DNA of 31,852 bases from Sanchytrium tribonematis (lineage: Eukaryota; Sanchytriomycota; Sanchytriomycetes; Sanchytriales; Sanchytriaceae). Positions within the stretch are counted from its first letter, which is position 1. Each line of letters begins with the position of its first letter. Shown in pieces: positions 2,450 through 31,049 of this stretch. The stretch lies in assembly GCA_018985235.1 (NCBI GenBank), contig JADGIG010000047.1, positions 1 to 31,852 on the forward strand, given 5' to 3'. A program made the position numbers and the translations under genes. The notes beneath the pieces are model-generated. The model saw only the letters and a program-made list of their open reading frames with translations, had not been told where the DNA came from and did no database searches.

Positions 2450-5400
2450 ATGTCAATCAATTTGATCATCTATATAATATTTGGACAGATTCAAGACTCG
2501 TTAGGAAGAAAATTTAATAGCTTACAGCAAGCCATCGAATCAAGAGCAGAAAATTTGTTTTTTATGTCTAAAATAATAGGCAATTGTGACACTTTCATAA
2601 ATTTTCCTGTAAATATTGTTGGAAATACGCACCAGCTCAAGTGCGTCGATTCGGGACAAGTGAAATCTAACAATAACCTAAATATCTCTGGACTGGAAAT
2701 TGTTAATCTCAAAATGGAGTTATCAGGAAACGGGTTTTTAAAAATCGAAGACAGCAATTTTATTGGAAAATCATCTTTCTCATTTGACGAAAATTCTGCA
2801 GCATTTATTAATAACGTTACAATAATCGATTCAAGCATCAATTTAGTTGCAGCAAAAATGACCAACTTGCAAATCTCAAATATCGTAGAAGTGAATTCGC
2901 AAACATTGTTGATTAGTTCAGATGATTCAAAAATAGCTATTCGTGAATGGTCTAGAAAATTTTGCACCGGAAACCTGTTTGAATCAAAAGATAGCTCCTT
3001 TATATCAATTTATGGACTAACTTTAGAAAATATGTCATGTACTTCGAATAGTGGCAATACTTTAATTGGGACATCCAGGGATACTAGTAATTTTGATATA
3101 AAAAATTTAAAAGCGACTAAAATTGATGCATCGGATTGTTCCATCGCCTTTTTTTCACTTACTTCTAATTCGGCTGGTGCCTTGCAAGATGCAAGTATTG
3201 TAGATTCCGTAGGCAGATTTTTATACATGGATGACAACAGCTATTTGGAATTGAATAACTGTACCATCATTAATCTTTCAGAGTCTAAGAATGAGTATTT
3301 AATTTATATGCGAGGCTCTTCCATAATGACAATATACAAATCTAAATTTGACTCGACACTTGGAGCGATTTTAATAACAGAATATTCTTCATTAATTGTT
3401 AACAGCACCCAAATGTTAAATATGAGAGGAACTGAATCTCGTAAATATGTGTTCTCCAATTTCGAATTTTCTAAACTTCAATTTAATGAAGTAGGAGTCT
3501 TCTACACACAAATGGTGTTGAATTTTGATAACTTTTTGATATCCAGAGGCTCTTCTTATACAAGTTTTAGCAATAGCATTATAACTGGAATGGACTGCAC
3601 TCAAGTGTGCTTGGATATACAATCAAATTCGCAGCTGCAAATATCTGGGAGCTCTTTCGAGGCACTAAAATTCAAAACTTTCACACGGCTATCTGGACCT
3701 TATACGCGTACACTGAATATAAGTGGTAATACATACCAGAGTCTTGATGGAGATAATTTCTATGACGTTTCCAATTCAAAAATATTTTCAGAAAACGAAT
3801 TTATTAATAGTGCAAAAGTATTCGCATTCTTCAAAATATCGCAAAATTCCCAGTTTTTTGGTTTGAATCTGACATCTGAATTAGTGGGAACGGAAACTTC
3901 CATAGGCTCTGTTATCAATTCTGACAAATCTTTTATTGAGTTGATTCGATCAAACTTTACAAATAATGAAGCTTTGATAGGAGGAGTATTATTTAGCGTG
4001 TTATCTAATTTGAGCTTGCTAAATTGTGAATTTATTTCCAATAAAGTTAATGGGGATGGAGGAGCTTTGTATCTGGATGAAAACACGAACTTTTATTCTA
4101 ATTTGACAAATTTTAAAGGAAATACCGCTTCTCGTGGCGGAGCCATTTATTTGAATAATACCGAATTACCAAATTCAGACTTTCCTTTTTTTAATAACTC
4201 TGCTTTGCAAGGAAATAATATTGCAAGTAGCCCCAAGTATTTTCAAATGAGTTTGACTAGAGGAAGAACTATAAATGCGACCATAAAAATTACAGACTTA
4301 TATAAACAACCAATTGTTGTTCAGTCTTGGGATCCTATAATATTATTATCCTTAAAAAGTGAAACCCTAAAATTTTTTGGTCAAATATTGATTCCAGTTA
4401 CGTCTTCAGAAATTAAACTTAATAATATTCAAGTTTCTGGAAAGTTGGGTCAGGGAGAAATTCAATTGATAGAAGTTGAGGATGTTGTGAAATTTAATGG
4501 TAAAATATTAACTACAGCCAACATTGAAATTGAACCCTGTCAGTCAGACGAAATAGAAATAACGAATAATGAAATGTATGAGTGTGTAAAAAGTTTTTTA
4601 TGCTAATGTAGAAATTTGTGAACAAGGCTGTTTGCATGGAACATGCTTGGGAAACAATAATTGCAAATGTTTTAAAGAATTTGAAGGTGATGACTGCTCT
4701 TTAAGTAACAATCCTGACTACATCGAGGTTAAACTAAATCACACTATACCTAACTTATCTTCGAGGCAATTATTTGTAAACTCGATCCAAGATTGGCCAA
4801 ATTTTAGTAACGCTGAATTTCGGTCCATCGCATTTCGGGACCATACTACCATCGTGAAGATGTGCTTGAAAAAAAACAAGTTTAATAATTTTTACGTTGC
4901 ATTTGATGATTTAACTACTGCCTCGGATGAAAGTCGTTCTAGATATAATTCTCTTGACGTGATCTCAATTTCTCCGTATTCAGTTACTAGTAATCGTGTA
5001 CCATTGAACTCAAATTCAATTACTCTAATGGTGCTTAATATACTTGTTTCAATTATTGGTCTGGTTCTCTTTTTGTTCCTTTATAGGCAGCGAAATCATT
5101 TGGTTTTTAAAACTTCACCCTCTTGGTTATATGGGAATTACTTATTTGTTGCTATTTGTATGGCCATGGCCTCCATATTACTATCAGTGGGCTATGTTAA
5201 GCTCATGTGCGCTCTTGAGAGTATTTTGTGGGGTATTTGCATTACAATACTGACTTTGACTCATTTCTTACATGCAATGGAATTTTATTATCGAAACCAG
5301 AATTTAAAATCTTGTGAGCGACCATTTTATCGTCAAAATGTCAAATTGTATATAATTGTTGGTTGTTTAGCTCTATTTTCTATCACATTTCAAATTTTAT

Positions 5401-6065
5401 TTCACACTATAAAGCGAAATGGAATTATCATTAATGACGATCAATTAATATGCGATTTAGATGACGTTAAGCAGTACGTCTATATTACATTTGCATCAAT
5501 TCATATCATCATATCAATAATTAATGGTCTTTTATTTTGGACTAGCAGATATATGTCTGAGCCAAAAGTGATGGTCGTTATTTCATTCACTTTACCAATT
5601 TCCTTGGTGCTGAAAGTAGTTCAATATCAGAGTGGGATTCTTTCCCAATTTATTTATCTCATGTGTAATTTGCTGGTTTCCATTTCAGTGCTAATTTTTT
5701 TCAGCTACAGGTTACACAAGATTTATTATCGAGAATGCAGAAGTGCATTTGAAAATCACTTTAATTACTCGAACCTTGAAAAGAGCAGTGTGAAGCTTAG
5801 TGGTGTGCTACCTTTAAAAAAGTCAAATGGTTTTAAGTGGAGGCAGTCCCTTATTGAGCTAGTGACAAATCATAATTACCTCGTCATATCTATGGGAGAT
5901 AAAATGGTTATGTACAAAGATTTCAAAATTATGAGTTTGGATGGAAAAACTACTGAGACAAACTGTTTTGAGATATCCACAAGAAAGTCAAAGTATCTCT
6001 GTCAGTGCGAGTCAAAAGAAGAGTTGGACATATGGATTAATGAGTACCTCAAAATCTCAAATTAA
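2450..6065 (+). CDS. Receptor-like protein: beta-helix, EGF-like, seven-span (class C GPCR-like), PH-like tail
   Basis: Two exons (2450-4592 and 4612-6065) give 1,198 residues. The N-terminus has a short signal-like hydrophobic run. Residues about 20-640 are Asn/Ser-rich repeats, ending with clear Pmp-type motifs (FTNNEALIGGVLF, GGALY, NTASRGGAIY). A Cys-rich EGF-like module follows (about 710-745). Seven hydrophobic segments span about 850-1085. After the first comes KTSPSWLYGNYL, and the region resembles class C/GABA-B-type receptors. The last ~90 residues look like a PH domain (FEISTRKSKYLCQCESKEEL, then a W in the final helix). The likely orientation is a large ectodomain outside and the PH-like tail inside, bound to phosphoinositide or protein. 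Without splicing the frame breaks exactly between the EGF cysteines; with it, the spacing matches the paralogue (ECVKKICEQGC versus NCRSPICSKGC). The domain order is unfamiliar to me. The ligand is unknown. Confidence 0.85.
4593..4611 (+). other. 19-nt spliceosomal intron (receptor gene)
   Basis: GTTTTTTATGCTAATGTAG, phase 1. Removal joins a frame-2 exon to a frame-0 exon and restores the Cys spacing of the EGF-like region seen in the divergent paralogue, which has no intron at this point. It ends in TAATGTAG, matching TNAYNTAG. Confidence 0.88.
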
Positions 6066-6157
6066 ATGTTTCGATAATTCTGCGAGGCTTCTTTCTTGAA
6101 GGCAACCAAAAGAAATAAATATAAAGCGATCGTGTTTCAAATTTAGGTCTATTTGTA

Positions 6158-9100
6158 ATGAGTCGCTTAGCGTTGGAAAGAGCTCATTTAGATAGTCCAG
6201 AAATAAGACAGCAGTTATCGGATGGGCATGATAGAATCAAACAACTAAATGGTATTGCTACCAAGCTGAACAATTTAGTCAAGGGTGTAACAAACCACAT
6301 CGAAGAACTGGGTAACCAATTAACCGAATTCTCTTATGAATTGACTGATTTGTTGAATTTTGAGCGAGAAAATTGGTTCACTATGGAGGAAAGAATTTCA
6401 ACTCCTACCATGTCTGCCAAAAAGGTGACCAATCGTGGTAATAAAACCAGTAATGGTGGAAATGCTGTAGATTTATTGTTTAATACGATTTCTAGAATGA
6501 ATCAATGTGCGCGAAGTATTCAAGATCAAAAAACTAATGTCGAGAAAATTAGAGACGATATAATTGCACCTTTAAATTCCTTTAGCTCCCAGGTAGAGCA
6601 ACTAGAGCATGTCAAAGCTCAGGTTGAAATCAATAGGCAGAATTATGAAATCCAACTTGACAAATTCTGTGGACTTTCAAAAAAAAAAGAAGAGAAAAAA
6701 ACAATGCACAAAGATCAACTTATCAAAATCACAAATGCCCAGAACGACTACTTTTGTAGCATAATAGGGTATATGGGCAAGGTAAATATGATGAACCAAA
6801 AAGAGGGGCTTTTTTTACTTGCTAAGGGAAATACTTTCTTATCTATATTAAGTCAATGGTCAAATCAATCATTCAACTACATTTCATCTGCTAGTCATTC
6901 TATCACTGATGTTTATGAGAAGTGTAATCAAGCAGATGCAGACCGGCCTGTGGATGATCTTGAGCTATTTGTCAATTTAAATTTGGCCAAGCTGCCAAAG
7001 TTTGAACAGGACGACATACAAAACGACTCTTTAATATTGAATGATAGAGGTTATAAACACGGTTACTTGAGATTTCGTGCAAGAGGTCGAAAAGAATGGA
7101 AACGAAAATATTTTTATATTCAGAAACCAGAAGGTTTATTGATGTGTATTGAAACCGGTGAAAGCAGCATCATGGTCGCTGACATTAAAACATCTATGGT
7201 TCAACAAGCTGATATTGATGATAGATATAACACTTTTCAGATAATCTGTCCCCCTCATTCTTTAATTGCTCTGCAAGCGGAGTCACAAAAAGATTTGAAA
7301 GAATGGATGAAAACTTTTAGGGCAATTCAGCTTAGTGATACTGGTTTAGAAAAGCATGAGCTAAATGCAATCAGGGTCTCCACAGAATGGACAGCAGAGA
7401 TTGAAGATATGTTATCTGCTGCATCAAACGTAGCATCAGTGATTCAGCAAAATTCTAATTTAGGAAGGAATTCATCGCTTTTGAGCAGAACAAATAAGCA
7501 TATCGAGCAAGACCATATAAATAGTGTTCTAAAGGAAACCGAATTGATCAACATGAATGTAGGTTGCTGTGAAATCAAATCTCAAAAGTGGAAAGGGAAA
7601 CTGGCGACCATATTGGCTTCGGGATACTTTAAACTTTGTACACATCCTTCTGAGAAGAAAGAGGAACCAGCAATAATATTAAAGATATCCGATATTCCGA
7701 TGGAGATGATTATACCAGTGCATCCAAGTCTTTTTGATAGAAAGCATGTGTTTTGCATCAAGTACGGTACGAAGATTTTTTATTTAAAATGTGATGATGT
7801 CGAAAAGTATATAAAATTAAATTATTGGCTAAAACACTTTTCCATCAAGCCATCCCCAATATTGATCGGGAGTGAGTTCATCCCAGTTAGGACATTACGT
7901 CACTTGGTGATAAAATTGATAGATGGGCGAAACTTTTTAAACAGAGGAGATTTTTATTGTACAATTAGTATTGATAACATACTATTAGCAAGAACATCAT
8001 TTATAGAAAACAATCTAGATCTTATCATAAGAGAAGAGTTTAAATTTGACGAATTTCCTGCTATTAATTTTGGGGTTACAATTTCAGCTTATGATACCAC
8101 TAGATTTGCTAAAGACCAGAGATTTGGCCGAGTGTTTGTGAGAGCCTCAAAATTAAAGTCCGAAAAAGAAGAAGAAGACTATTACCAGTTGGTTTCAGGC
8201 GAAGACAAAGACGAGGATCTAGCAAGAGTATCTAATTTGGGTGAAATACACATTAAATGGAAATACCAAGAAATTAATGTATTACCCCTGTCAAAGTATA
8301 ATCATTTACTATCTCTTATGAATTCATTTGATTATGAGCTTTTAAAAAGCCTTTACAAATCCGCATTTGATCTAGAACCACTCTCTCACAATTTGTTAAT
8401 GCTATATATCTCTCAAAATAGAGAAATAGAATGGTTCATGTTTTTAATCGAATTTGAAACTAAATCAATAGGTTATTTTCACTCACTTAGATTCAAACAC
8501 TCTTTTTCGTGGGAACTCATTATTGACAAAAGCACTGGAGATTTATCTCAAAATAATATGCTTCGATTTTTTAGATAGTTGCGTTGGTGGATTTGTGAAA
8601 ATGCTAATAGAGAATGACATATATTTAGAAGTAGATCCTTTAAGAGTTGAAAAGCAAGAAGTTTTGCAACACAATTGGAGCCAGCTAATTGGATTTACTG
8701 AGACGTTGTGGTTGAAACTATTTCAAACCAGGAAAGGTATTCCTATGAAAGTTGTTTTATTGCTGCAATTCATAAGAGAAAAAGTTACGGAACAACTGAG
8801 TGAAGAAAATGCTAAATTTCTATCAGTTAGTGCATTTTTCTTTTTACGATTAATATGTCCCTCTTTACTTAGTCCTAAGTTATTTAATCTCACAAGGGTT
8901 CATCCTTCCCAAAATTGCCAAAGAACCTTGACATTGATAGCCAAATCGCTTCAATCTCTGGCTAATTTGAGCATTTTGGGTGCTAAAGAACAATACATGA
9001 ATCCCATGAACACATTTATAGAATCAAAGTTTAATGACATGAAGCAATTCTTAATAGACGTGTCGACTTGTGCCACACCAATTCGCCCACCAACTTTGAA

Positions 9101-9242
9101 CATGAATGATGATATCCACACAATTGAATTAGAAAATCACCTGGCTTATTTTCACCATTTTGTGATGAGCTCTGATAAGACTAATATTCATAAAGACCTG
9201 ATTGCAATCTGCAATAGCATATCGAACTCAACAGAAGATTAA
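6158..9242 (+). CDS. BAR-PH-PH-C2-RasGAP protein
   Basis: Two exons (6158-8471, 8491-9242) encode 1,021 residues. Residues about 1-260 are helical and resemble the ACAP/ASAP-type BAR domain. A clear PH domain follows (about 300-392, starting HGYLRFRARGRKEWKRKYFY), then a second, weaker PH (about 467-570), a C2 domain (about 579-700) and a RasGAP domain (about 710-1000). The GAP keeps its key parts: the arginine finger in NTLFRGNSL (Arg about 778) and the FLRLICPSLLSPK motif near 890. It should therefore stimulate GTP hydrolysis by a Ras-like GTPase at curved, phosphoinositide-containing membranes. PH-C2-RasGAP is the SynGAP/RASAL-type core; an added N-terminal BAR is unusual. A run of ten A at 6679-6688 lies in the coding sequence. 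The exons join inside the GAP domain. Confidence 0.9.
8472..8490 (+). other. 19-nt spliceosomal intron (RasGAP gene)
   Basis: GTTATTTTCACTCACTTAG, phase 1. Splicing creates SIDSNTLFRGNSLLTKAL, the expected sequence around the RasGAP arginine finger; reading through destroys it. It ends in TCACTTAG. Confidence 0.95.
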
Positions 9243-9273
9243 TAAACAATTTGATTTAAACTTGAAACATTGA

Positions 9274-10104: not shown

Positions 10105-10175
10105 TTTGACAATGCACGTATATATCAAAATAAAAGTCGATCGTACTTAAACGTTTCAATTTTCTCCTATTCCAA

Positions 10176-11760: not shown

Positions 11761-11799
11761 ATTCTTGTTAATATGTTAACCCTAGTTTCATAACTTAAT

Positions 11800-14122
11800 A
11801 TGATTAACAACGTTTTACAGAATATATTGTCTGCAAATCGCGTCCTTATTGACAAAAAGCTTTACTGGCTAAATGGCGTTAAGGCTCCATTGGACTTCAA
11901 GGATCCACACTTTTTTGAGGCCAGAGAATTTCTTCGGAAATTTGTTGGGTTACAGATAAAATTTGATGTTGTTTACGAAAAAGAAAAAAACATTTACATT
12001 GATTTGTACCTGCCAAAATCTGGGGAATTTGAATTGGTCAACGCTTATCTTGTTAGACAGGGATTTTGTTCCGCAATTGGAAAAGGATATGAAAACGAGG
12101 AAAATTTGGCAAAAATTGAGAAACTCGGAATTCATGGAGGATTTTCCGGTATTTCGCCTAAAGAAGAGATTCCGCCTGGTAATAATTTTAACGGAATGAT
12201 AGAACGAGTTTTGCCCAAATCCGTTTTAATTAGGGCGATAATTGACAATAAGCACTTTCTTTTTCAGGCCATGTGGTCTGGTGCAAATTTGAATGACAAA
12301 GCTCGAGATTTTTTGGAGTTTTTTCTAATTTTGAAAACAGTGAGCATTTCAGTTGACTCTAGAGAACCAGCCAGAGTTACGATCAATCACTCAAAGGGAA
12401 ATGTGAATTTGATTTTAATTGAAAAGGGCCTGGCTACTCCGGACTTCAGAACTCCTTTAAAGTGGCTGCCTATTGATAAAAAAGACGCCAAAAGAGGCCT
12501 GAAATTAACAAAAATATTGCACGCACAAGCTTTTGAGATATCTGGGGAATTATTTTATCTTAATGGCATAAGGATCCCTAAGGAAATAGATCAAATTGAC
12601 GCACAAGATCTTCTACGACCCTTTATTAATCAGTCCTGCTCTTACACTGAGGAAAAAGTATTAACCATAAATGATCAAGTTAGAAGTTACGGTGTACTTT
12701 ATATCGAATCGAGGAAAATTTTCCCAGCAAAATTATTGGTCGAGAAAGGTTTAGCAACAGTTTTTCGACCAAAAAAGGATGAGCAACCTACAAGCATCTA
12801 TTCAGATTTATTAGAGCTCGAAAGCAAAGCTATTAAAGATAAAGTGGGGATTCATAATCCAAATTATAAGCCGCAACCTTACATTGATGCAAATGAAAAT
12901 TCTTCAAAAGCTAAGTCGTTTCTTGGCCAGCTTCAAAGAAGCGGTAAAATTCAGGCTGTGGTAGTATTTCAAATATCTCCGACAAAGTTAAAGTTGCGTT
13001 TGCCAAAAGAACGATTAGTCGTGATTGCAAGTTTAGCTGGAATAAGGACGCCATACTCTAAAGTTGGCAACGAGTACAATGCCATTAGCCAAGCAGCTGG
13101 TAAATTTGTTAGCAATGCATTAACAAAAGACATTACAATTGAAATAGAAGATATTGACAAGTCTAATGCATTTACCGTCAATCTTTGGGTACAAACAAAT
13201 CTTCTTTCTCAGCAATTAGTGGAGTTAGGCTATGCTACTGTCACTTCAGAGTGTAAATATTATAATACAATTAAAGCAGCAGAGAATATTGCTTCTGCCA
13301 AAGGTATAGGACTATGGGCACTAGAGAAGAAGATCGAGGACCATACCCCAAGATTGTGGAAAATTCAGATTGAAGGGATTAAATGTTGTGTGACAGAATA
13401 TAATGGAGAGGGAGAAGGCTTCATTCAAATTGTAAACGATGATATACATAAATTAGGTGAAATTACTAATATTTTAAATAACTCCACATTAAATACAGCA
13501 AGTACCCTTAATGGATTAGTAGCAGCTAGATCTGAAGATGGTAAATTTTATAGAGCCAAAGTTATAAAGAAACTAAATGAAAAGGCGCTGGTTCGATTTG
13601 TAGATTTTGGAAATGTACTTTTTAATAATATAGACCGAAAATGTTCTTCTTTCTGATATCAAAATAATTCCCGAGGAGGTTCCAAAGATTCCCGAGCAAG
13701 CCAAGCCATTCAAGTTATCATTCGTAGATTTGCCTGCATTGCCTGATAGATATGGTGCAGAAAGTGGCAAGAAATTTTCCGAATATATTGGAAAAGATTT
13801 GGTAACTGCCAATGTTGATTCTATTCAAAATGGAGTGCATAATCTTACGTTTTTCCCAAAAGAATTACCCAATGTTACAATTGACATAAGCACAAAAAAA
13901 TATGCCGAGTCCATTGGAATGCAGTTCAAATTATCCGTCAATGCGATGCTTGTATTTGATGGTCTAGCATACATGAATTCTTTTATATACAAGAAAAGTA
14001 CATCGCTCGAGGGCTTAGCGGACAAGGAAGAAGAAATTGTAAAATGTCTAAGCTCTTATCAAGCTGAAGCTAGGAGAAAAAGAAAATTTCTTTGGGAGTT
14101 TGGGGACTTTTTGGAATATTAA
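11800..14122 (+). CDS. SND1: Tudor-SN (staphylococcal nuclease-like and Tudor domain protein)
   Basis: Two exons (11800-13614 and 13634-14122) encode 767 residues, shorter than the roughly 880-910 of animal and plant Tudor-SN. Four degenerate SN-like (OB-fold) repeats occupy about 1-510. Typical family segments are the repeated 'LVEKGLAT' strands and RLPKERLVVIASLAGIRTP in the fourth repeat. The Tudor domain (about 560-640) carries RAKVIKK and VRFVDFGN, followed by a partial SN domain and the family-like end RKRKFLWEFGDF. In other eukaryotes the protein binds and cuts structured or inosine-containing RNA, takes part in stress granules and RISC, and binds methylarginine through Tudor. The repeats look too divergent to judge nuclease activity. 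It converges on the minus-strand genes at 14128-16080. Confidence 0.9.
13615..13633 (+). other. 19-nt spliceosomal intron (Tudor-SN gene)
   Basis: GTACTTTTTAATAATATAG, phase 0. It sits right after the Tudor strand VDFGN. Splicing yields VDFGNTENVLLSDI, which matches the family; reading through stops within 14 codons. It ends in TAATATAG. Confidence 0.95.
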
Positions 14123-16270: not shown

Positions 16271-18035
16271 TCAAGGCCTCGACGATGATGATTTTTGAGA
16301 TGCCAAGGATTCCTGAGAATTATTGGTATATAAAAGCTTGGCCTTTCTGGCAGTAAGTTCGTCTAATTTCCGCTTGCATCGTTTCTCTAAAATCGGAATT
16401 TCATCAATATCTATAATATCTTTTCCAAAAATTTGCTTTTCATAGTCAATTACGATATCCACGACATCGGAGTGAATTAATGGATAGAGTCCCACAATCT
16501 TTTCATGTATTCCACTTTCTCCGCTTATTAGAATTTTCTGTTTGGTGAGATTTCTATCCTTAACAAAAATTTCAGAAACAATGTCTTTTGATGGTTTGCG
16601 GCTGTTTATATATGCCGACTCCGCAACATAGCCAGATTCCAGTCGAGAGCTAGCTGAACTGTGTTTTGAAAGCCTCGATCTTGTCGAAGCGGAATCAATT
16701 TTATCACTTTTTTCAGGAGAAATTAAAGGACTAAGAGTTTCCATTTTTGGCGAAACCAATGCCTCTGAATGGCTTAACATTTGGGTCTGAATGGGCGCTG
16801 GACTTATAACAACTGTGCTGCTATTCGTATGTTCAGAATTTGATGATCTCGTACTTTTTATATCAACAATTTCAATATATTTTTGTAAAGGAGTCTTAGC
16901 CTGAGGATTGTTTAAATACAACTCTGGTTTCATTACTTCTAGAAAAAAAGCTAGATAAATATAATATACATGGAAACCTGTGGTCATACCTCCAGGCTTT
17001 TAGAGCTAATAAAACTGTATTCATAACACTCTCAGATACAATGCCCAATTTACCATAATCAGATTCGTGGAACTGGAGCAACGTATCGAATCTGTCAATA
17101 CTTTTAAGCAATTCGATGTCGCTTGGGTGCTCTTGCAAATCCGATGATCCTAAAAAAACCCAGTCTATCCATGATTTTAATACAGGTACATCCTTTTCAA
17201 CTAAAAACTTCCGCCCTATACTTAGACAGTCCCCATGATATATATTGTGAAGATTCGACTTTCCAACTTTTACTCCATTTACAAAGGTGCCATTTGTACT
17301 TCCATCTTCGACCAAAATCTCATATTTACCACCGGCTTGCCGTCTTCGTCGTATTCTACAATGGAAGTGCGAGACCTCTTGAAGTTTAATAACATGATCA
17401 GCACTGGGGTTTCTACCTATTTGAAAATCGTCTCTAAAAACAAATATTTTATCAAAGGTTCCTTGAACGACGGGAGTCAAAGTACACCAAACTTTCTTCT
17501 TCCCTTTTTTGCTAGAATCTCCTCCTATTTTTTTCAAAATAGAGTCTTTAAATCTAGACATAGAGCTCGAGCTTCTAGGTCTTCGATCGTTATCAGTGAT
17601 AGGCTCCGTAAAGCTTCTCGATCTGTTTGTCCCTTGGCTTTCAAAGCTAATACCACTTTGTTGACTTTGGCGACTCTGCTGGCTTTGAAGTGAATGATTC
17701 GATGCCGTTGTGTTGTTAGATTCTGAGCTTGTCTTATCTTGAAGTTCAATACCATTAGGGTTTTTCAAAAATTCCTCAATGGCATACTTAATAGGGTAAC
17801 ATGGGCCCAATGAATTGAGATCCAATTCTTTATGACAGACCGGACATTGCCGCTTGACTTGTGGTTGATCTGGATCATAATCACCTTTCAACCACTTCAC
17901 TATGCTGGATTTATCAAACATATGCCCACATTTTGATATTTGTGGTTCTTTCATTATTTCCATACTTATAGGACAGATGAACATCTCTGGTATTGCTTGC
18001 TGAAATGTTACTGGTGACGGATTTGAAATGGACAT
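16271..18035 (-). CDS. U-box/RING and FHA domain protein (putative E3 ubiquitin ligase)
   Basis: Two exons (18035-16970 and 16950-16271 on the minus strand) encode 581 residues. Residues about 18-75 form a U-box-like RING: FICPISMEIMKEP, CGHMFDKSSIVKWL, then CPVC. Some RING cysteines are missing, so the U-box fold is likely. A Ser/Gln-rich linker follows (about 95-175). A typical FHA domain (about 190-280) has IGRNPSADH, SHFHCRI and DGSTNGTFVNG, with the Arg, Ser and Asn that bind phosphothreonine. The C-terminal half is unrecognised, mostly polar, with a final charged helix. It probably brings ubiquitin to phosphorylated partners, like RNF8, CHFR and yeast Dma1, but those have FHA first and RING last; here the order is reversed. 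Confidence 0.85.
16951..16969 (-). other. 19-nt spliceosomal intron (U-box/FHA gene)
   Basis: On the minus strand it reads GTATATTATATTTATCTAG, phase 1, ending in TTATCTAG. It joins the two overlapping open frames (…DHRFP to SFFLEVMKPEL). Support is from frame continuity and the shared intron consensus rather than from a known domain at the joint. Confidence 0.88.
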
Positions 18036-18251
18036 GAAAAGAGTGGCTTGTAATTACAAAATTCGATGTGTGTCAAGTTAAGAAGATATAGATAACACCC
18101 GCTGCATTTTAAGGTGATAAATTTGAAGGCCTCATTCTAGGATGAAAATTAATTTAGGCAAGCAAAACAAGGGACTTTGGTGAAGCAATCGCCAATCAAC
18201 TGAGTTCTCGATAGTTTTTTATGATGTGGACAATCCATAACTCAGTAATTA
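18036..18251. promoter_or_regulatory. Divergent promoter gap with a CCAAT box
   Basis: 216 bases between the starts of the U-box/FHA gene and the type II membrane gene. GCCAATCA at 18191-18198 lies about 54 bases before the plus-strand ATG, at a spacing similar to the CCAAT box of the eL39 gene. No other element is clear. Confidence 0.5.
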
Positions 18252-21612: not shown

Positions 21613-22059
21613 ATGTTCTTCTCTTTGCTATCGATCCACAGTTACAATCCCGGAAACAGCTACAATCAGCAGCGATCTCCTGGTTATTCCTACAGTGCTT
21701 CTCCCGGTGAATATAGCTATAGTGGCCAACAATCGTATTTTTCATCTGGTAATAAATATGGTCGAGCAAGACCATCGACTTCTGGGTATGTTGGATACAA
21801 TTCAAATCCCTCGTATTTAAACCCACCACGATTTGATACTCCAAAGGGATTCGAGAATGTAGAACCAACTAAAACCGTTAACAAACCGGATGCGACCTCA
21901 AATGATAGCGAACCTTTTGAAGATGATTCTTCAGTTGAGACCGAATCCAGTGAGACTGAGACTGAGATTGTTTTTATCAAAAAAGCCACCAAAGGGAAAA
22001 ATTCGGGCGCTTCAATCTATAGTTTCTGCGGTGCAATTTTAATTTCTTTCTTTTTATAA
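21613..22059 (+). CDS. Small Tyr/Ser/Gly-rich protein with GPI-anchor-like C-terminus
   Basis: 148 residues. A short hydrophobic start (MFFSLLSIHS) could serve as a weak signal peptide. Residues 10-70 are repetitive Tyr/Ser/Gly/Pro-rich (YNPGNSYNQ, PGYSYSASPGEYSYSG). Residues 85-120 are acidic and rich in Ser, Thr and Glu. The end is a polar KGKNSGAS followed by a hydrophobic tail that stops at once (IYSFCGAILISFFL), a classic GPI-attachment pattern. It is therefore a likely cell-surface or wall protein, of no recognised family. The signal peptide is short; an undetected upstream exon is possible, but no TNAYNTAG acceptor was found in the gap. Confidence 0.65.
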   Translation: MFFSLLSIHSYNPGNSYNQQRSPGYSYSASPGEYSYSGQQSYFSSGNKYGRARPSTSGYVGYNSNPSYLNPPRFDTPKGFENVEPTKTVNKPDATSNDSEPFEDDSSVETESSETETEIVFIKKATKGKNSGASIYSFCGAILISFFL

Positions 22060-22129
22060 TAAAAACATTTTAAATTTGGAATTTTGGCCTCAGAAATTTC
22101 TATCAAAAATTCGTGGCTTAACATTTTGT

Positions 22130-23888
22130 ATGTCTTCCACAGATTCTAAACTTCCATTGCTTCCAGGTAACAAAAGAATTGGGCCATACATACTAGGAAA
22201 AACATTAGGCATTGGCTCAACAGGTCGCGTTAAATTAGGCATTCATCATAGAACAAAAGCAAAGGTAGCGATAAAAATAGTCCCAAAATATCCTTCAAAG
22301 AAAGGAAAGTCAGACCAATCTGCTTATTTTAAAAAATTAGAACGCGAGATTACAATTATGAAATTAATTAGACACGATAATATTATGACTTTGCATGATG
22401 TTTACGAAACTAAGGATGAATTATTTTTGGTAATGGAATTGGTTGAAGGCGGTGAATTATTTGATTATCTGGTTAAGAAAGGTAGGCTTGGAGAAGATGA
22501 AGCCCGAAAATTTTTTCAACAGATGCTACTTGGACTTGATTTCTGCCATCGACATTTAATATGCCACCGGGACCTAAAACCAGAGAATCTTTTATTAGAT
22601 GCTGAAAAAAATATTAAGATAGCAGATTTCGGAATGGCAAGATTTCAACACAATGGGAAAATGCTTGAAACAAGTTGTGGGTCGCCACATTATGCATCTC
22701 CTGAAATAATCAAAGGAATAAAGTACGATGGGCCTGCAAGCGATATATGGTCCAGCGGAGTTATATTATATGCTTTGCTCTCAGGTTCACTGCCGTTTGA
22801 TGACGACAATATCCGCCGCCTTTTAGCAAAGGTGAAAGCTGGAATATACCAGCTACCAGAACATGCATCTTTGGAAGCTCAAGATTTGATACAAAGAATG
22901 TTGGTCATTGAGCCAAAAAGACGTATCACTATTGAGGAAATATTTAGCCATCCGTGGTTCACAGCAAATGGGAAGGAATTAATTGCAAGAACCCAGATAC
23001 CCAAAGAAATCCAAGAAGTTGAACCAGTTGATGAAATCGATTCCGAAATTGTTAAGAATCTATGCTTTCTGGGGTGGGAAGAATTTGAGTTGATTGAATA
23101 TTTGCAAAGTCCAGATAAAAACATAGAAAAAATATTTTACACACTGCTTAACGAACGGAAGAAACACCCATTCTATCAAATGGGTTCTGATGATGATTTA
23201 GAGTCCGCAGTTGATGATGCATCTCCAAGAAGAAGAATCACAAATCAAGGCGATGTTTTCAATGCATTACGAAGAAGGAGCGACGTACACAATAGTTCTC
23301 CAGATATTTCTAATTCATCTTTGCCAACAAGCTCATCCAACAATGTCGATTTGTCGAAATCAAATCCGCATAAACATAGACTTAATATACAAATTCCAAC
23401 TACCTCGGAGCCAAATATTGCCCAAAACCCATCAACGCCATTTCACAGAGAACACATAGATGCAGCTCAATATCCTGGAACTCCGATTATAACAGAGACA
23501 CCGAAGAAGACCTGGGTTCCAGATATGTTTACTTTTAACAAAGATCTGCCAACAGTATTAATTATTGACGTAGATTTTCGCTGTGACTTCTAGTGGCGGA
23601 CCCGACGATGTGATTAAAAAAGTTAAATCAATATTGAATAACATGGGCTGTAAAACCCAGCCTGGTAGAAAGCATGGATTGAAGTGCAAGCAAGATTCGG
23701 ATATTAAATTTAAAGATGATCCTAAGCCTCTCAAATTTAGAGTTGAAATAAGCTCGCGCCCACCTAGAGAGACTGATATGCAAATAGATCAGTTATACAT
23801 CACATTTCAATTACAAAGCGGATACCTTGAACAATTCAAACAACTAAATGATCATTTTACAGAAGTTTGGAATGTAAATAAACAATAG
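22130..23888 (+). CDS. Gin4/Hsl1/SAD-type protein kinase with KA1-like C-terminus
   Basis: Two exons (22130-23554, 23574-23888) encode 579 residues from the first ATG; an in-frame TTG further up is not needed. The kinase domain (about 17-275) has the start RIGPYILGKTLGIGSTGRV, Lys 49, HRDLKPEN near 146, DFG near 165 and activation segment TSCGSPHYASPE. A UBA-like segment (about 300-345; IVKNLCFLGWEEFELIEYL, then EKIFYTLLNERK) matches the equivalent region of fungal Hsl1/Gin4/Cdr2 and animal BRSK kinases. A polar Ser/Asn-rich linker leads to a C-terminal domain (about 478-575; LKFRVEISSRPP, then LYITFQLQSGYLEQF) that fits a KA1 membrane-binding domain. Such kinases link cell polarity or septin organisation to the cell cycle at the membrane. 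Confidence 0.9.
23555..23573 (+). other. 19-nt spliceosomal intron (Gin4/SAD-type kinase)
   Basis: GTATTAATTATTGACGTAG, phase 0, ending in TGACGTAG. It joins the linker to the KA1-like exon as DLPT to IFAVTSSGGPDDVIKKV. Without splicing the protein stops before the KA1-like domain. Confidence 0.92.
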
Positions 23889-24024
23889 ATTTCTTGTCAT
23901 TCTTGACCTGGTGATATCTCTGCTTGCCTGAAAGAAATTCGCGTTTCGGTATTTTGTTTCACTTTCTGATTGGGCAAAGCTCAAGTTATGGAGAATCATC
24001 AATTCTAGAACATCGCATATTAGA
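23889..24024 (+). promoter_or_regulatory. Promoter gap of the eL39 gene with an inverted CCAAT box
   Basis: 136 bases between the kinase stop and the eL39 start. GATTGG at 23968-23973 is an inverted CCAATC, 52 bases before the ATG. The gap also carries the 3' end of the kinase gene. Confidence 0.5.
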
Positions 24025-24177: not shown

Positions 24178-24269
24178 TAAATGCATCGCCATGTTCTATA
24201 ATCCTCTATCATTTGCTTTCTCTGAATCTATGATGTTTAATCTACTTGAGGATTTTTCAAAACGTCCCC

Positions 24270-24760
24270 ATGACCCTAAAAGCATATCTTGATCAATTAA
24301 TTCCATATAAAGCACAGCGTTGGACCACATTTGGACTGTTGATTACATTATTCCTAATCAGAGTGTTCCATTACCATTTATTCTACATCTATTTGTATGC
24401 ATTAATGATATATATTTTGCAACTTTTCCTTTTATTCTTAAGCCCGAAATTTTTATCAGAACCTGACGAAACGCTCCCGATAACCTCAAATGATGATGAA
24501 TTTAAACCTTTTGTTCGCAAATTACCAGAATTTCAATTTTGGATTCGAATTACAAGTGGTACTCTGTTGTGTAATTTATTGATAATTTAGGCTGCATTAT
24601 ATCGCTATTCCCAGGCTTGGATGTTCCAGTTTATTGGCCAATTTTGGTTGTTTATTTTTTCCTTCTATTATTTTTAACATTGAGAAAGCAAGTTCAACAT
24701 ATGATTCAATATCGATATGTCCCTTATACAATAGGCAAAAAGAAATACAATACGAAATAA
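24270..24760 (+). CDS. RER1: RER1, ER/Golgi retrieval receptor
   Basis: Two exons (24270-24570 and 24591-24760) encode 156 residues, somewhat shorter than the usual 190 because the N-terminus is trimmed. Family landmarks are YLDQLIPYKAQRW, FLSPKF, DDEFKPFVRKLPEFQFW, LDVPVYWPILVVYF, RKQVQHMIQYRYVPY and a final GKKKY. Four membrane helices are expected, as in the family. RER1 binds polar residues in the membrane spans of ER proteins that have escaped to the cis-Golgi and returns them by COPI. The start is uncertain: an in-frame TTG lies upstream at 24246, and ATGs at 24191, 24230 and 24233 are in another frame. It converges on the ABC transporter with 21 bases between stops. Confidence 0.93.
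24571..24590 (+). other. 20-nt spliceosomal intron (RER1)
   Basis: GTAATTTATTGATAATTTAG, phase 1, ending in TAATTTAG. Splicing recreates the conserved fourth-helix region (LLCCIISLFPGLDVPVYWP); the unspliced frame stops at the intron's own TAG. Confidence 0.95.
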
Positions 24761-24781
24761 TAAAAATGAATCACAATATAT

Positions 24782-27700
24782 TTATTCCAAAGTAATTTGA
24801 CCACGAGCCAAGCCCTCCAATTGTTCCGGATGGGTGGAACTGTCAACCAATTGTCGAAACACACCATCTTTCTTGTCCAATAATGCGGCCGGACTGCCAT
24901 ATTCAACGACACATCCTGCATCCATCACAAGCACTCTGTCACTATCAATAATAGTGTCCAATCTGTGGGCAATCGTGACCACAGTCTTATCGGCAAACAT
25001 CTCTCGGATGACTTTTTGAATATGTCTGTCAGATTTAGCGTCGATTCTGGAGGTTGCTTCATCCAAAACTACGATTCTACACTCAGACAATACAGCTCTT
25101 GCAATACAAAGCAACTGCTTTTCGCCCGCACTTAATTGGTTAGTCAAGATTGTATCCAATTTTTCAGGAAACGCTTTTATCTTCTCAGTCAAATTCATCT
25201 TATCAAGAACTCTCCATAAATCTTGCTCCGTAAATTCGTTCAAAGGATCCAAGTTGTATCTCAAGGAAGTTGTAAATGTGACTGGTTCTTGAGGAATGAT
25301 AGCAATGCTACTTCTTAAAACTTTCAAGGGAAGTTTGTCGCATTGAAATTCATCCAATGAAATGTGTCCTCGAAATCCATCAACGATTCTGAATAAACTA
25401 GAAATAATGGTGCTCTTTCCTGCACCTGTTCGTCCCACAACACCCACCTTTTCACCAGGTTTAACATCAAAACTCACGCCTTTTAATATAGGATCCCCAT
25501 TTTCTTCATATTTCAGCCAAAAGTCATCATATATAATTTTGCCTGTAAATTTTGGAGCCAAAGATTTGTCTTCGGCGGTGTCAATTTCCTCCACGGCATT
25601 GTCCCTAATGAACATATGAGATTGGCCCGCTTGTAATCCCAACAAACCATCACTGAAGGCTTTAACAGTCCATTGTAGAAAAACCAGTAGTTGAAGTGCA
25701 TTCGACAAAGCAAGTCCAAGGTTAGAAGGATCGGTTTGAAACAAAAAAGCGAAACAGGTGGCACCAAAAATGTATAGTGACACCCAAATATCAACGTAAA
25801 AACCACGGAAGCATTCTAATAAACCCAAAGCTAGTGCATATTGATGGTTTCCATCCATTATACGATACAAAGTATGAGTAAATTGAGTGGAAGATCTGAA
25901 AATTCTGACACAAGCAATACCGTCAACAGTGACGTTCAAATGGGTGTAGATTTCAGGGCGGGTGCCCAATTCCTTACTTAATAACGTATCATAAAGATTC
26001 TTTGTAAAATATTGGACGCTCAGGGCAAGTACGATCGCTGCAATAGACAATGTCCAAGTCCAAGGAATAAAAGCAATTGTCATACCCAAACCTCCTAAAG
26101 AAAGAGGCAGAAATTGCAAAACTTTAAAAAAGCTTTCAGGCATTTCGTCGTCCAATGCATATATGTCTTTGGAAAATGCTCCGATGGTAATTCCGATTGG
26201 ATTGACCTCAAAATATTTCATCCTGGACTTAAATATAGTATCAATACTAGTTTTGTGGATAGACTTTGCACGGCTACTCGAAAATCTTGAAAACACATAA
26301 CCTCTTGAGAAAACAAATATTCCAAAGGCGGCCATAAAGATCAAATAGTATAATGCATACTCATTTGAGGAGAGACCTGGAATCGCTTTCTTACCCCAGA
26401 CTCGAACCCAGTAATCACTTCCCAAACGGATTCCATGAGTAAAGAAAAACAAAAATACCATTGCGGCAAAAGAGAGCCTGATTTTCTTATTCCCTAAATA
26501 AAATCCAACCGCTTCTCCACTCTTGATTTTCAACTCATCTTTATCTTCTTGAGGAACAAGAACTTGGTCATCTCCTTCTTCTTCGTCTTCACCGTGACTC
26601 GTAAGTTGACTCTTTAACGATCTCCAGGTTTGCGAAGGATAGTTATAACTTCCACCAGTCGACCTCATTGCCAAAGATGACCTTGTGGTCAGTTGTATAC
26701 TTCTAGAAGTGTTTCCACTATGCGCGTACTTTGCATAATCTGGCACCTCCAAATCATTTTCAGGACCTTCATATTCAAATTGCATACCCGAATGTTCTTT
26801 ATAAAATTGTTGGAAAGCAGGGTGCTTCGTTGCTTCATTGGTGACACCATGACACGCAATTTTACCATCTTTCATTAAAATGACATAGTCAACGTTATTG
26901 ACCTGTTGCAAGTTATTTGTAACGAGCAATACAGTCCTTTTCTTTAGAAACTTCTTCACACACTCGTCAAATATATGCTTACCTACTTTTTGATCCAAAG
27001 CGCTGAGAGGATCGTCTAGAAGGATCAAGTCACTATTAGCGTATACAGATCTTGCCAAGCTAACTCGCTGCCTTTGACCTCCAGATAAATTTGCTCCACC
27101 TTCATGTACGAACTAAATAAATATGAATCTACCATATTTTCGCCCTCTGCAAACATTTCCAAATCAGTTTTAAGTCCACACGAATGGATGACTTGCTCAA
27201 GACGCTTTGCACTAAACGGAGCACCAAGTAAAATATTTTTCTTGATGGTTTCCTTCAAAAGCCAAGCCTCTTGAGGACATAAACTGACGGATGAGGTTAC
27301 ATTTCTGGTACCAGATACTTTTTTCATTTCACCAGAAATTGCGTTTAATAAACTCGACTTTCCCGATCCCACATCTCCAACAATAGCCACTAGAGTTCCA
27401 TGTTTAATTTTTAAATCTTCAATTTTTAATTTGAAGGACTTCTCTTTGTTCCAAGTAAACTCTGCCTCTTTAATATCAATATCGAATTCTTGATGAGTTT
27501 CAGCACTTTCTGGCGCATCAATTTCATCATATGCTAAAAATCGCTCGATATTTTCCATTCCTTTTATAGCACCAACAAAATCGGTGATTGCATTAGGTAG
27601 AAGCAGAAGTGGGTACCTTAATGAATTGAATAAATTCAAGCAAGTAAAAGAAACAATCGGACTAATAGTTCCACCAAGTAGCTGAAAAGTCCAGAGTGTG

Positions 27701-28596
27701 ATCCAAACAGTGAAAACTGGGAATACAAACACAGCCGTATAATTGCATGCTCTCAGGATCATTTTTTTCAACATCAAGTCTTCTTCACCTTTTCTGTCTT
27801 TTTCGATGTCATTCTGGAAATGATTTTCCCAAACATAAAACTTAATCAACTTCATCACAGGAAGAACTTCCACTACTTTCTGAACTCTGTTCAATGTCAA
27901 AGAAGTTACTTTGTCAATAGTTTTAGCTACAACTGCACCAATCCAGCCATTAATAGGTAAGAAAATGAGCAACATTCCGATTGCTGGCAATACCGCAACA
28001 CCAACAAGTGAGCTTCCCAAAGCAAAGATCGCAATGACTTCAAAGGGAGCTGTCCATAACACATGAAAACTTTGGACACCTTGAGCTACGCTAGGAATAT
28101 CAGTTGCAACAATTGTGACTGTGTCTGTAATAGGTTCACTAGCCAAAGTTTTGAGTAGCTTTGAGTATACCAAGCTAGTCAAAGCTGCCTTAACTCTAAC
28201 CGAATGCTTAAATGATAAGTAATTCATGTAGTGAATAGCAAATGTAGCACCTAGACAACAGATTAACATAAGTGCAGCCCATGTATAGGATGTTATCCCA
28301 TACTGTTCAACTCCAGACCCAGCATTTAACAGTCCTAGAAAAACCCAATACGTTGCTGTCCAAGTGAATAAACCCCAAATAATTTTAAGAAATCCGAAAA
28401 GCAATAGCTGCTTACCATTATACTTCAATAACCAATTCAACAATGCTTTTTTTCCAGGAGTAAATGAGTACACAGGTGCGCTGGCTGAAGTTGACAAGAC
28501 TTCTTGTGGAAGCCTTAACCTTGCGTTAGGATTTTTCATAAGTCGAAAAACCTGACCGAAGAGCCATTTCGAGGTTATTGAAATAGCCTTAACCAT
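24782..28596 (-). CDS. ABC transporter, ABCC/MRP subfamily
   Basis: Two exons (28596-27133 and 27112-24782, minus strand) encode 1,264 residues: a full transporter without the extra N-terminal TMD0. Order: short N-tail, TMD1, NBD1, charged linker (about 580-640), TMD2, NBD2. NBD1 has Walker A GDVGSGKSS near 405, signature LSGGQRQR near 495 and Walker B LILLDDPLSALD. NBD2 has Walker A GRTGAGKST near 1049, an altered signature LSAGEKQ near 1151, Walker B VVLDEATS and H-loop IAHRLD. As in many ABCC proteins, NBD1 has Asp where NBD2 has the catalytic Glu, so only one ATP site is fully active. Such pumps export organic anions, glutathione conjugates or drugs across the plasma or vacuolar membrane; the substrate here is unknown. 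ATG 28596 is chosen over the TTG at 28608. Confidence 0.95.
27113..27132 (-). other. 20-nt spliceosomal intron (ABCC transporter)
   Basis: On the minus strand it reads GTAGATTCATATTTATTTAG, phase 0, ending in TTATTTAG. Splicing gives GENM then FVHEGGANLSGGQRQR, restoring the NBD1 signature; reading through shifts the frame and loses it. Confidence 0.95.
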
Positions 28597-28937
28597 CAAA
28601 AGACTCAAGTAGAAGATTATCGATGGAAATGCAGCTATTTATACTTTTATCAGCCAATCATAAATCTTAATACCAAAAGGAGATTGATTGCTGTTGATTG
28701 GACGACGCTCTGATAAGCCAATCATGGGAATTCAATTTACTTTTTCTGGGTAAATCATAGACATCAATTGGCTCTTGACTAATTTTTTTGGATTGCCAAG
28801 ACACGATTACCTTGCTTTTGTTTGAAAGTAAATTTTTGGAAACAAATCACCTACTCCTCATATTTTTTATCTTTTTCATTCGGCTATTGGACAGTCCTCG
28901 TGATCTTTTATATCCATAACAAATACCTCCTTCAATC
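28597..28937. promoter_or_regulatory. Divergent promoter between ABC transporter and eIF5A, with several CCAAT boxes
   Basis: 341 bases, the largest gap in the window. AGCCAATCAT occurs twice as a direct repeat (28652-28661 and 28716-28725). GATTGG at 28696-28701 and ATTGGCT at 28767-28773 are inverted copies of the core. CCAAT boxes are bound by the NF-Y/HAP complex in fungi and animals. Their number fits strong expression of eIF5A; their position nearer the transporter leaves the target gene open. No open frame of note is seen. Confidence 0.6.
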
Positions 28938-29405: not shown

Positions 29406-29467
29406 TAAATTAGATGCACATTTTATTCAAGACTTGTACTTTTATTTGAAACAAGGTAAATCCCTTG

Positions 29468-31049
29468 ATGAATTCCTCTATTGCAGTGGACCTTAAATTA
29501 AGTTGCCAGGGTCTTAAAAACAAAGACACATTCAGTAAGAGCGACCCATATATCGTGGTGTTCGAAGATTCTCGGATATTGGGGAAGACCGAAATAATCA
29601 AAGACAATTTATCCCCTGCGTTTACCAAATCCATTCAGCTGGATTATTATTTTGAAAAGGTGCAAAAGCTTCATTTTGAAATTCGTGATGATGATGGGAA
29701 TGAAAAGTATGATCATCTGGGAGAAGCTAAAGTGGTGCTCTGTGACATCGTCACTGCAGGACCTGATGGGTTTGAGGTGCCAATTTTGATAAATGGAAAA
29801 TCTCACGGAAAGCTAAAAATCAAGGCCCGAGAAATCAAAAAAGAAATGTTAAATGCATATGTAAAATTTTCTTTGAGTTGTACAAAATTGGATAAAAAAG
29901 ATTTATTCGGAAAAAGTGACCCTTATTTACTTTTGTTTAAAATTGACAAAGATGGAAGTTTGAACAAGGTTCATAAAACTGAAATAATCAAAAATACGTA
30001 TGATCCAAATTTTCAGTCATTTAAATTACCACTTTCTGATGTCGGCGAGGAAAAAGTACGACTGGAATGTTGGGATTGGGACAGAAGCTCCAAGGATGAC
30101 ATAATCGGTGCATGTGAATTCAATATGCAAGACTTTAAAAGTAAGGATGAGTATTCAGAGATTGAACTCTTCAATCCTACAAAAAAGAGTGGCAAAAGAG
30201 CCGGAATTTTGATAATTAAAAAAATTTATATACATAAAAATTGGTCATTTATAGACTTTATACAATCTGGTACGCAATTGTGCTTCTCGGTAGCAATTGA
30301 TTACACTGCAAGTAACGGGGAAATGGACAAACCAGGATCGTTGCATTATGTTGGTTCACAAAATCAACCTAGCCAAGTTCCCACTTTATATGAACAAGCA
30401 ATACAAAGTATTGGAGGTATTTTAGAATATTATGATAACGATAAACAGTTTCCATGTTATGGATTTGGTGCCAAATTTCCAAATGGAAAAGTGTCTCATG
30501 ATTTTCACTTAAATTTTAATGACAACGATCCAAATGTTTTAGGTGTTCCAGGAATTTTAACTGCTTATCGAAATTGTCTAATGAATGTCAGGCTCTTTGG
30601 TCCTACGGTAATATACATTAACATAGAATTGCGCACCTATTATTCGCAAGATGATTAGTGTATGCAAACAAGAAGGAAAAGGTGCAGAGAAGTATTTTAT
30701 TCTATTGATTTGTACAGATGGGGAATTAACAGATATGGATGAGACAATTGAGGCAATAGTCGATGCTTGTGGAAGTCCTTTATCAATTGTGATTGTAGGT
30801 ATTGGAACCGCTGATTTTGGAAAAATGAAAGTATTGGACGGTGATGAGGAAGGACTTAAGGATAAAAAGGGTCGGGCAGCCTCCAGAGACATTGTTCAGT
30901 TTGTTGCCATGAAGAATTATATGGATTTAAATGCCATAAATGTACAGCTGCCCAGTGATTTACTAGCTGAGGTTCCAAAACAACTTCTTGACTACATGCA
31001 ATTAAGAGAAGTAGGTCCAGTTTTTGAATTACCACCTGGTGAATTGTAA
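29468..31049 (+). CDS. Copine (two C2 domains and a vWA-like copine domain)
   Basis: Two exons (29468-30607 and 30627-31049) encode 520 residues, typical for copines. C2A (about 1-120) has SKSDPYIVVFED and the acidic RDDDGNEKYDHLG loop; C2B (about 130-255) has GKSDPYLLLF and CWDWDRSSKDDIIG. Both keep the aspartates that bind calcium. The copine A domain (about 265-500) begins FIQSGTQLCFSVAIDYTASNG, the MIDAS-type metal site, and includes CTDGELTDMDET. Copines move from cytosol to phosphoinositide or phosphatidylserine membranes when calcium rises and recruit partners through the A domain. With the RasGAP, CaMK-like and PH proteins it adds to the membrane-signalling content of the window. Its stop lies two bases from that of the next, opposing gene. 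Confidence 0.95.
30608..30626 (+). other. 19-nt spliceosomal intron (copine)
   Basis: GTAATATACATTAACATAG, phase 0, ending in TAACATAG. Splicing gives LFGPTNCAPIIRKM, matching the conserved copine segment GPTxFAPII; the unspliced frame loses it. Confidence 0.96.

Follow-up and report, generated by a model that had tools for sequence, protein, structure and literature searches.

Small introns in eight genes of the window

The stretch of DNA analysed here (31,852 nucleotides (nt), termed the window) is contig JADGIG010000047.1 of the Sanchytrium tribonematis assembly GCA_018985235.1. Eight of its genes are each interrupted by a segment of 19 or 20 nt that begins with GT and ends with the motif TNAYNTAG. 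These segments are most probably U2-type spliceosomal introns that have shrunk to 19 nt (most of them) or 20 nt, with branch-site recognition fixing the 3′ splice site; the probability of this interpretation is put at about 0.93.

The segments had been proposed in an earlier reading of the window made without database searches (the sequence-only reading). A letter check confirms the position of each, the lengths (six of 19 nt and two of 20 nt) and the GT starts, i.e. GTA in six and GTT in two. The TNAYNTAG end is present in all eight, but its description as rigid is slightly too strict, as TNAYNAAG ends also rescue frames at 19 nt. Excision of the segment gives a single continuous frame in all eight genes, and the spliced proteins have chain lengths of 156 to 1264 amino acids (aa).

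Four junctions fall within Pfam domains (copine, Rer1, ABC and Tudor) and two adjoin recognizable motifs (RasGAP and EGF-like). Six spliced products were rescanned with Pfam, and a match was joined or raised in four of these; the products of the EGF/7TM (seven-transmembrane) and FHA genes were scanned in unspliced form. In the junctions given below a slash marks the site of the excised segment.

The copine gene (29450-31049) has a 19-nt intron of phase 0 at 30608..30626 (plus strand), within the Copine domain. Two open reading frames with Pfam Copine scores of 90.2 and 142.7 bits become one with 248.8 bits when spliced. The junction is FGPT/NCAPIIRK, and the spliced protein matches BONZAI 1 without a break (E = 2e-90). 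In Rer1 (gene 24234-24760), a 20-nt phase 1 intron lies at 24571..24590 on the plus strand; the Pfam score rises from 107.8 bits unspliced to 188.7 bits spliced across the junction SGTLL/CCIISL. The Tudor domain of a Tudor-SN-like gene (11794-14122) contains a 19-nt phase 0 intron at 13615..13633 (plus strand, junction VDFGN/TENV), with scores of 35.7 bits before and 56.9 bits after splicing. The intron-bearing genes also include that of an ABC transporter (24782-28638), where a 20-nt phase 0 intron at 27113..27132 on the minus strand interrupts the first ABC domain. The ABC_tran score is 37.2 bits for the first exon and 70 bits for the spliced sequence, and the junction, EGENM/FVHEGGANLSGGQ, stands immediately before NLSGGQ.

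The remaining four introns, all of 19 nt, are seen by frame rescue. One of these (8472..8490, plus strand, phase 1) is in gene 6125-9242. Splicing gives no Pfam gain for RasGAP (99.9 bits unspliced, 100.7 spliced); the junction ETKSI/DSNTLFRGNS is immediately ahead of TLFRGNS, which we take to be a RasGAP family motif. In the protein kinase gene 22043-23888 the intron (23555..23573, plus strand, phase 0) is ahead of the C-terminal tail, and no Pfam match spans the junction in the spliced product. In the U-box/FHA gene (16271-18053) the intron is at 16951..16969 on the minus strand (phase 1); splicing joins 361 upstream codons to 226 downstream codons, with the U-box and FHA domains in the first exon. 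The last is at 4593..4611 (plus strand, phase 1) in gene 2432-6065, which displays an EGF-like domain followed by a 7TM-like region. A Pfam match to EGF_PEAR1L, below the cut-off, starts directly after this junction. The putative introns of the EGF/7TM and FHA genes rest on the reading frame, and that of the EGF/7TM gene also on this sub-threshold match.

Some further features of the window may be mentioned. Gene 6125-9242 (plus strand) combines BAR (APPL-type), PH, C2 and RasGAP domains in one protein. Genes 2432-6065 (plus strand) and 3-2333 (minus strand) are large, adjacent and divergently oriented; besides its EGF-like domain, the former resembles class C 7TM receptors at a score below threshold, and the latter has just a faint EGF match. 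No tRNA gene was found in the window, and an Rfam scan of 229,126 bp (the window and 20 other stretches of the assembly) showed no family at the gathering score.

Intron lengths in a sample of the assembly

A sample of 231,498 bp from the same assembly was analysed on both strands. It consists of 20 stretches (of at most 10 kb each), one small locus and the window, and has a GC content of 35.3%; the published values for the sanchytrid assemblies are 34.64% and 36.27% (PMC8371127). The pattern GTA...TNAYNTAG was found 36 times at 19 nt and 11 times at 20 nt, with no occurrence at 18 nt, two at 21 nt and 0–5 elsewhere between 13 and 30 nt. The less restricted pattern GT...TNAYNTAG has, in raw form, 44 matches at 19 nt and 14 matches at 20 nt; the lengths of 21–60 nt have on average 11.25 matches each, and 17 at most. 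Since the count at 20 nt is below this maximum, the raw GT...TNAYNTAG form singles out 19 nt only.

A match was considered to rescue a frame if its removal opened 40 or more codons both upstream and downstream and if the unspliced frame closed more than 20 codons earlier. By this rule, 26 of the 44 matches at 19 nt and 7 of the 14 at 20 nt rescue a frame; for each of the remaining lengths between 13 and 29 nt the number is 0–3. All eight window introns are among these 33; the other 25 are new. When the branch and 3′ motif is not required and at least 60 codons must be rescued on each side, GT..AG segments number 38 at 19 nt, 19 at 20 nt and 0–19 at other lengths between 10 and 40 nt; for control segments with GT..AC borders the numbers are 11 (19 nt) and 14 (20 nt). 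Thus the 19-nt peak is independent of the motif, and the 20-nt class stands only with it.

The length histogram proposed as a check by the sequence-only reading therefore has, in this sample, peaks at 19 nt and, with the motif, at 20 nt, and no longer class. That reading had also raised the concern that introns whose length is a multiple of three would escape detection; in the raw counts, neither 18 nt nor 21 nt is over-represented. This acceptor yields no surplus of longer introns either (14 of 1062 rescued, versus 49 of 2203 for a control acceptor), in a test bound to TNAYNTAG-type acceptors, so that long introns with another 3′ motif are outside its reach. An apparent surplus of longer motif-bounded introns disappeared once the tiny-intron sites were removed. 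The second version of a gene finder that is based on codon usage and allows any intron length placed 10 introns at 19 nt and two at 20 nt, against 0–2 and 0–1, respectively, with seven control border pairs. This gene finder is weak and misses most of the motif introns; it showed no sign of long introns.

A larger set, 6.34 Mb in 311 contigs (the smallest seen being 10,309 bp), represents about 57% of the published 11.2 Mb in 1960 contigs, and short contigs seem to be absent from it. Here the motif count at 19 nt is 1036 (487 + 549), versus 1040 (513 + 527) for a reversed-pattern control. Taken alone, this control speaks against an excess; the length-resolved counts and frame rescue settle the matter. 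Scaled by the length background, an estimated 770 or so of the 1036 raw matches are real 19-nt TAG introns. With GT-AG borders in eight of eight window introns and one or two adjacent lengths, at or below about 21 nt, in the 231,498-bp sample, the segments belong to an ultrashort class of uniform length.

Consensus and branch point

The consensus is based on 35 introns (28 with 19 nt, 7 with 20 nt), all selected by motif, so that the branch A at position −6 is given by the selection; one 18-nt and one 21-nt match, which have a single acceptor between them, were excluded. It reads GTA-W-T-T, an A/T-rich spacer, the branch motif T-N-A-Y with A at −6, and a 5-nt tail that ends in TAG or, less often, AAG. 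Position +3 is A in 32 of 35; +4 is T in 16, A in 12, C in 5 and G in 2; and +5 is T in 26, A in 6, C in 3 and never G. The A+T content of the introns is 79.6%. Among the 38 rescued 19-mers chosen without the motif, 29 have A at −6 and 32 have T at −8.

TNAYNAAG occurs six times at 19 nt and rescues four frames, with 0–1 rescued at other lengths; CAG and GAG ends gave no rescued frame at 19 nt in the sample. A scan of branch offsets shows 36 raw and 23 rescued matches for the −6 position and, for five of six other offsets, 3–4 raw and 0–1 rescued. The sixth gave 13 raw and 6 rescued, but the standard motif is also present in 9 of these 13. The predicted branch A is thus at a fixed distance from the 3′ end. 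This is in agreement with the sequence-only reading, which placed a branch-like A six bases from the intron end and saw no room for a polypyrimidine tract.

These properties bear on a different explanation, namely that the segments remain in the mRNA and that ribosomes shift frame or bypass them. The segments do break frames, the case for splicing is built on genomic sequence, and abundant frameshift sites are described for another protist, Euplotes. Ribosomal frameshifting or bypass does not account for a GT start, a [T/A]AG end and a fixed branch motif, nor for the presence of splicing components, one of which, SF1, is itself broken by a like segment (see below). All three phases occur (13, 9 and 6 of the 28 introns of 19 nt). 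This explanation is regarded as very improbable.

Position of the introns within genes

Of 61 candidates with the GTA motif, 48 lie in spliced frames that reach 150 codons or more and are uncut by contig ends; their median relative position is 0.79. Candidates with a very short downstream part may be false because the motif contains stop codons. With at least 40 codons required on both sides, 29 of 32 introns are in the 3′ half of the gene, as are seven of the eight in the window. Control spacings likewise gather at gene ends (18 of 33 in the last quarter); the 40-codon filter leaves 4 of 88 control matches, three of these in the 3′ half, which are too few to gauge any bias of the method. Intron retention near the 3′ end may perhaps be less costly.

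Related copine genes and the identity of the host

Relatives of the copine gene, 65%–71% identical, were found in ENA contigs and EukProt entries. Four of these genes (P0002–P0005) stop right after FGPT, with the endings VVLF, VVKF, VLSF and VFFQLI. If a phase 0 intron of this type is read through, four codons are translated before TNA acts as a stop at a length of 20 nt, and six before TAG does so at 21 nt. The observed ends agree exactly with three introns of 20 nt and one of 21 nt, at the same break codon. The tiny introns of the copine relatives are inferred from these protein ends, and P0004 and P0005 may be two genes of one genome.

The shared break is relevant to the proposal that the segments are removed from DNA (in the manner of internal eliminated sequences), or that, in an amplified single-cell genome, they represent misassemblies or pseudogenes. 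The sanchytrid assemblies were made by whole-genome amplification (PMC8371127), which would favor such a proposal. It is hard to reconcile with the same break in four related copine genes, with GT-AG boundaries, and with a common motif at one length in dozens of genes flanked by long open frames, and we consider it highly unlikely.

The sequence-only reading was made without knowledge of the source of the DNA and saw fungal-type gene families in it. This holds: the named best homocitrate synthase matches, among 120 listed, are fungi, and the TPPP gene agrees with Sanchytrium. On these grounds an assignment to a mikrocytid, an early microsporidian or Babesia was rejected. The only p25-alpha (TPPP) gene found encodes 174 aa; the TPPP of S. 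tribonematis (JADGIG010000129) is reported to have the same length, and that of Amoeboradix gromovi (JADGIF010000946) 180 aa (PMC10459994). Among the listed matches of this fungal copine, the highest-scoring one that is named and not from an animal is from Paraphysoderma (Blastocladiomycota), and the Blastocladiomycota are reported as the sister phylum of the sanchytrids (PMC8371127).

Splicing machinery

Genes for splicing components were sought in the 6.34 Mb. U2, SF1 and Prp8, which the sequence-only reading had named for inspection, are present. The U2 small nuclear RNA (snRNA) gene (115.9 bits) has the branch-pairing sequence GUAGUAU, and a U6 snRNA gene (61.8 bits) has the ACAGAG box. 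A U1 candidate starts with AUACUUACCU; its assignment rests on this 5′ end and on its fold. Position +5 is mismatched to the U1 candidate in 35 of 35 introns, and the longest contiguous pairing is 2 bp in one intron, 3 bp in 11, 4 bp in 15, 5 bp in six and 6 bp in two.

The SF1 gene carries its own 19-nt intron, GTATTTCGAACTTATTTAG, within the KH domain. Splicing raises the KH score from 44.2 to 62.2 bits, and the product matches residues 96–323 of human SF1 (E = 2.5e-41). In other species the U2AF65-docking peptide of SF1 contains a tryptophan. The Sanchytrium SF1 open reading frame has none before residue 191, so that the N-terminal docking peptide would be absent. The first ATG is about 50 residues ahead of the matched helix-hairpin part. 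An additional exon could hardly fit in, since the gap to an upstream open reading frame of 353 aa on the same strand is about 45 bp.

Prp8 (697.6 bits over PROCN) is encoded in a single open frame 2239 aa long; 1277 aa of this sequence were read. Its relatives in ENA contigs and EukProt entries are 63%–74% identical. A quick tree groups it with three of these (SH-aLRT, the Shimodaira-Hasegawa-like approximate likelihood ratio test, = 100) on a long stem, with no resolved place among fungi. The long stem suggests fast evolution of a core splicing protein in this clade. Together, the pairing sites of U2, U6 and the sub-threshold U1 candidate, with SF1 and Prp8, point to a spliceosome of the U2 type.

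No candidate for Slu7 was found by six-frame search in this part of the genome, and as no control genome gave a match either, absence is not shown by this search. Prp18, U2AF65 and Isy1, sought in the same way, gave no convincing gene in the same 6.34 Mb. Three candidates were rejected. That for Prp18 is a weak match inside an open reading frame whose sole Pfam match is SRA1 and which presumably resembles the Sec31 C-terminus. The Isy1 candidate, though above the Pfam cut-off, is a stretch inside a PXA-RGS-PX protein (L028 622-3234) and may represent a coil resemblance or a fusion. The U2AF65 candidate looks like RBM39: residues 132–209 match RBM39 chains, although the top PDB matches by score are PABP, nucleolin and PUF60.

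A proposed mechanism

The U2-type introns described here would be spliced as follows. SF1, and then U2, would recognize the branch motif TNAY. The lariat would have a loop of 14 or 15 nt and a tail of 5 nt, and the AG that closes this tail would serve as the 3′ splice site, a fixed ruler that operates without a polypyrimidine tract. With no G at +5 and U1 pairing of mostly 3–5 contiguous bp, the fixed spacing and the branch helix would have to carry much of the specificity. Splicing may proceed by intron definition, as proposed in the sequence-only reading. A fixed ruler may remove the need for U2AF65 and for the second-step factors Slu7 and Prp18. Brys and Schwer (1996), to judge by the title, are said to have found that the SLU7 requirement depends on the distance between branch and 3′ splice site. 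This, together with Stentor (see below), suggests that a short tail could make second-step factors dispensable.

A stronger form of this proposal is that a 3′ end read from one signal evolved in sanchytrids independently of Stentor, with a 5-nt ruler, loss of the U2AF65 coupling and of Slu7 and Prp18, and abandonment of the +5G contact to U1 and U6. This is advanced tentatively, as somewhat doubtful. To the alternative, that the introns are as described and the spliceosome is ordinary, we give even odds. Slu7, Prp18 and U2AF65 would then be encoded in the remaining 43% of the genome or be too diverged, and deletion bias would have shrunk intron length to its physical minimum. The search of 6.34 of 11.2 Mb leaves room for this, other factors may be as hard to detect as the long Prp8 stem implies, and deletion bias against a functional threshold has been proposed for mikrocytids (PMC10245619). 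On the other hand, SF1-HH and p25-alpha were each found as a single candidate, which shows that the search has some reach, and for Stentor, whose introns have this tail as well, Slu7 and Prp18 are likewise reported as missing (PMC9505925).

Several observations weigh against the interpretation as tiny U2-type introns with a reduced machinery. Splicing is deduced here from the genome. The 20-nt introns show no clear excess when the branch and 3′ motif is not required (19 versus 14 in the control), and +5 is G in two of the 38 rescued 19-mers chosen without the motif. The U1 candidate scores 43.7 bits, under the gathering score of 69.5, and the same search (E up to 1) produces U1 matches short of the threshold in three control genomes out of 14. 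The SF1-HH match is under its cut-off. An RBM39/Rsd1-like protein is present. The searches for Slu7, Prp18, U2AF65 and Isy1 reached about 57% of the genome, so that each absence is weak evidence. The conclusion of the sequence-only reading, minimal spliceosomal introns in an ordinary fungal nuclear genome, is borne out by the rescue statistics, the domain junctions, U2 and U6, the sub-threshold U1, SF1, Prp8 and the copine relatives.

Comparison with other tiny introns

The parallels drawn by the sequence-only reading with nucleomorph and heterotrich introns hold; it missed the mikrocytids, with introns of 16–17 nt (PMC10245619). Nor did it mention that G is very rare at +5 and that the introns are placed towards the 3′ end of genes.

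In the heterotrich ciliate Stentor coeruleus, introns are 15–16 nt long and mostly have a fixed 5-nt tail. The branch is A10 of 15 or A11 of 16, as compared with A14 of 19 or A15 of 20 in Sanchytrium; the loop is thus 10–11 nt in Stentor and 14–15 nt, or 4 nt longer, in Sanchytrium (PMC9505925). The commonest Stentor intron, GUAAUUUUUAUAUAG, has U at +5 and fits TNAYNTAG, like the Sanchytrium introns; A+U is 75.6% in Stentor introns, close to the A+T value given above; and the U6 ACAGAGA box and the U2 branch site are conserved, as in Sanchytrium (PMC9505925). According to the same source, Slu7 and Prp18 were not found in Stentor, and neither was found in the part of the Sanchytrium genome searched. 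There are also differences. U2AF65 is listed as present in Stentor, whereas it was not found in the searched part of Sanchytrium; a CAG class occurs in Stentor but was not seen in the Sanchytrium sample; and introns are biased towards the 5′ end in the ciliate, as in yeast, but towards the 3′ end in this fungus (PMC9505925).

The mikrocytids Mikrocytos mackini and Paramikrocytos canceri (Rhizaria) also have two adjacent lengths, with 217 of 224 introns at 16 bp and 7 at 17 bp. They share with Sanchytrium the state of small parasites and a conserved intron sequence, at 19–20 nt in Sanchytrium. U2, U4 and U6 are identified in mikrocytids and U1 is not listed in the part of the paper available; Sanchytrium has a U1 candidate (PMC10245619). 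Chlorarachniophyte nucleomorph introns, of 18–21 nt (PMC10245619) or 18–23 nt (PMC6461891), are in a range that includes the Sanchytrium lengths. Nucleomorphs have kept the U1 and U6 motifs for the 5′ splice site although that site deviates, as in Sanchytrium (PMC6461891, PMC10245619). A nucleomorph, however, is the relict nucleus of an endosymbiont, with no 5′ motif past GU reported in the text available, whereas the Sanchytrium introns are in a main nucleus with wide gene content and have a clear GTAWTT. Yarrowia, Trichomonas and Giardia have a short, fixed distance from branch to AG and no polypyrimidine tract, as has Sanchytrium; their genomes are intron-poor and Yarrowia introns are rather long (PMC2483917), in contrast to the hundreds of introns estimated for Sanchytrium and the lack of a longer class in the sample.

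Significance

Uniform introns near the physical minimum are a kind already known from heterotrich ciliates, mikrocytids and nucleomorphs, and the Sanchytrium case is partly convergent with these. No paper on introns of Sanchytriomycota was found in the open-licence literature. In PMC8371127 the word 'intron' is used once, in the title of a reference. As far as that literature shows, nothing has been published on such introns in a fungal phylum, on their length of 19 or 20 nt there, on the minority of AAG ends or on the bias towards the 3′ end.

The published sanchytrid proteins were predicted as TransDecoder open reading frames on contigs (PMC8371127). Many entries in such proteomes would be truncated, with consequences for the number of genes counted and for gene losses deduced from them.

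A fungal phylum offers an independent case near yeast, the organism with the best-known spliceosome structures and genetics. By comparison, one could now test the old idea that Slu7 (and Prp18) are needed only if the branch and the 3′ splice site lie apart. If an equal loss of second-step factors together with a 5-nt tail is true of both a ciliate and a fungus, then tail length would decide which splicing factors can be discarded. Sanchytrium, which infects algae, thus represents a fungal test case for minimal intron size, with lengths near the shortest known to be spliced.

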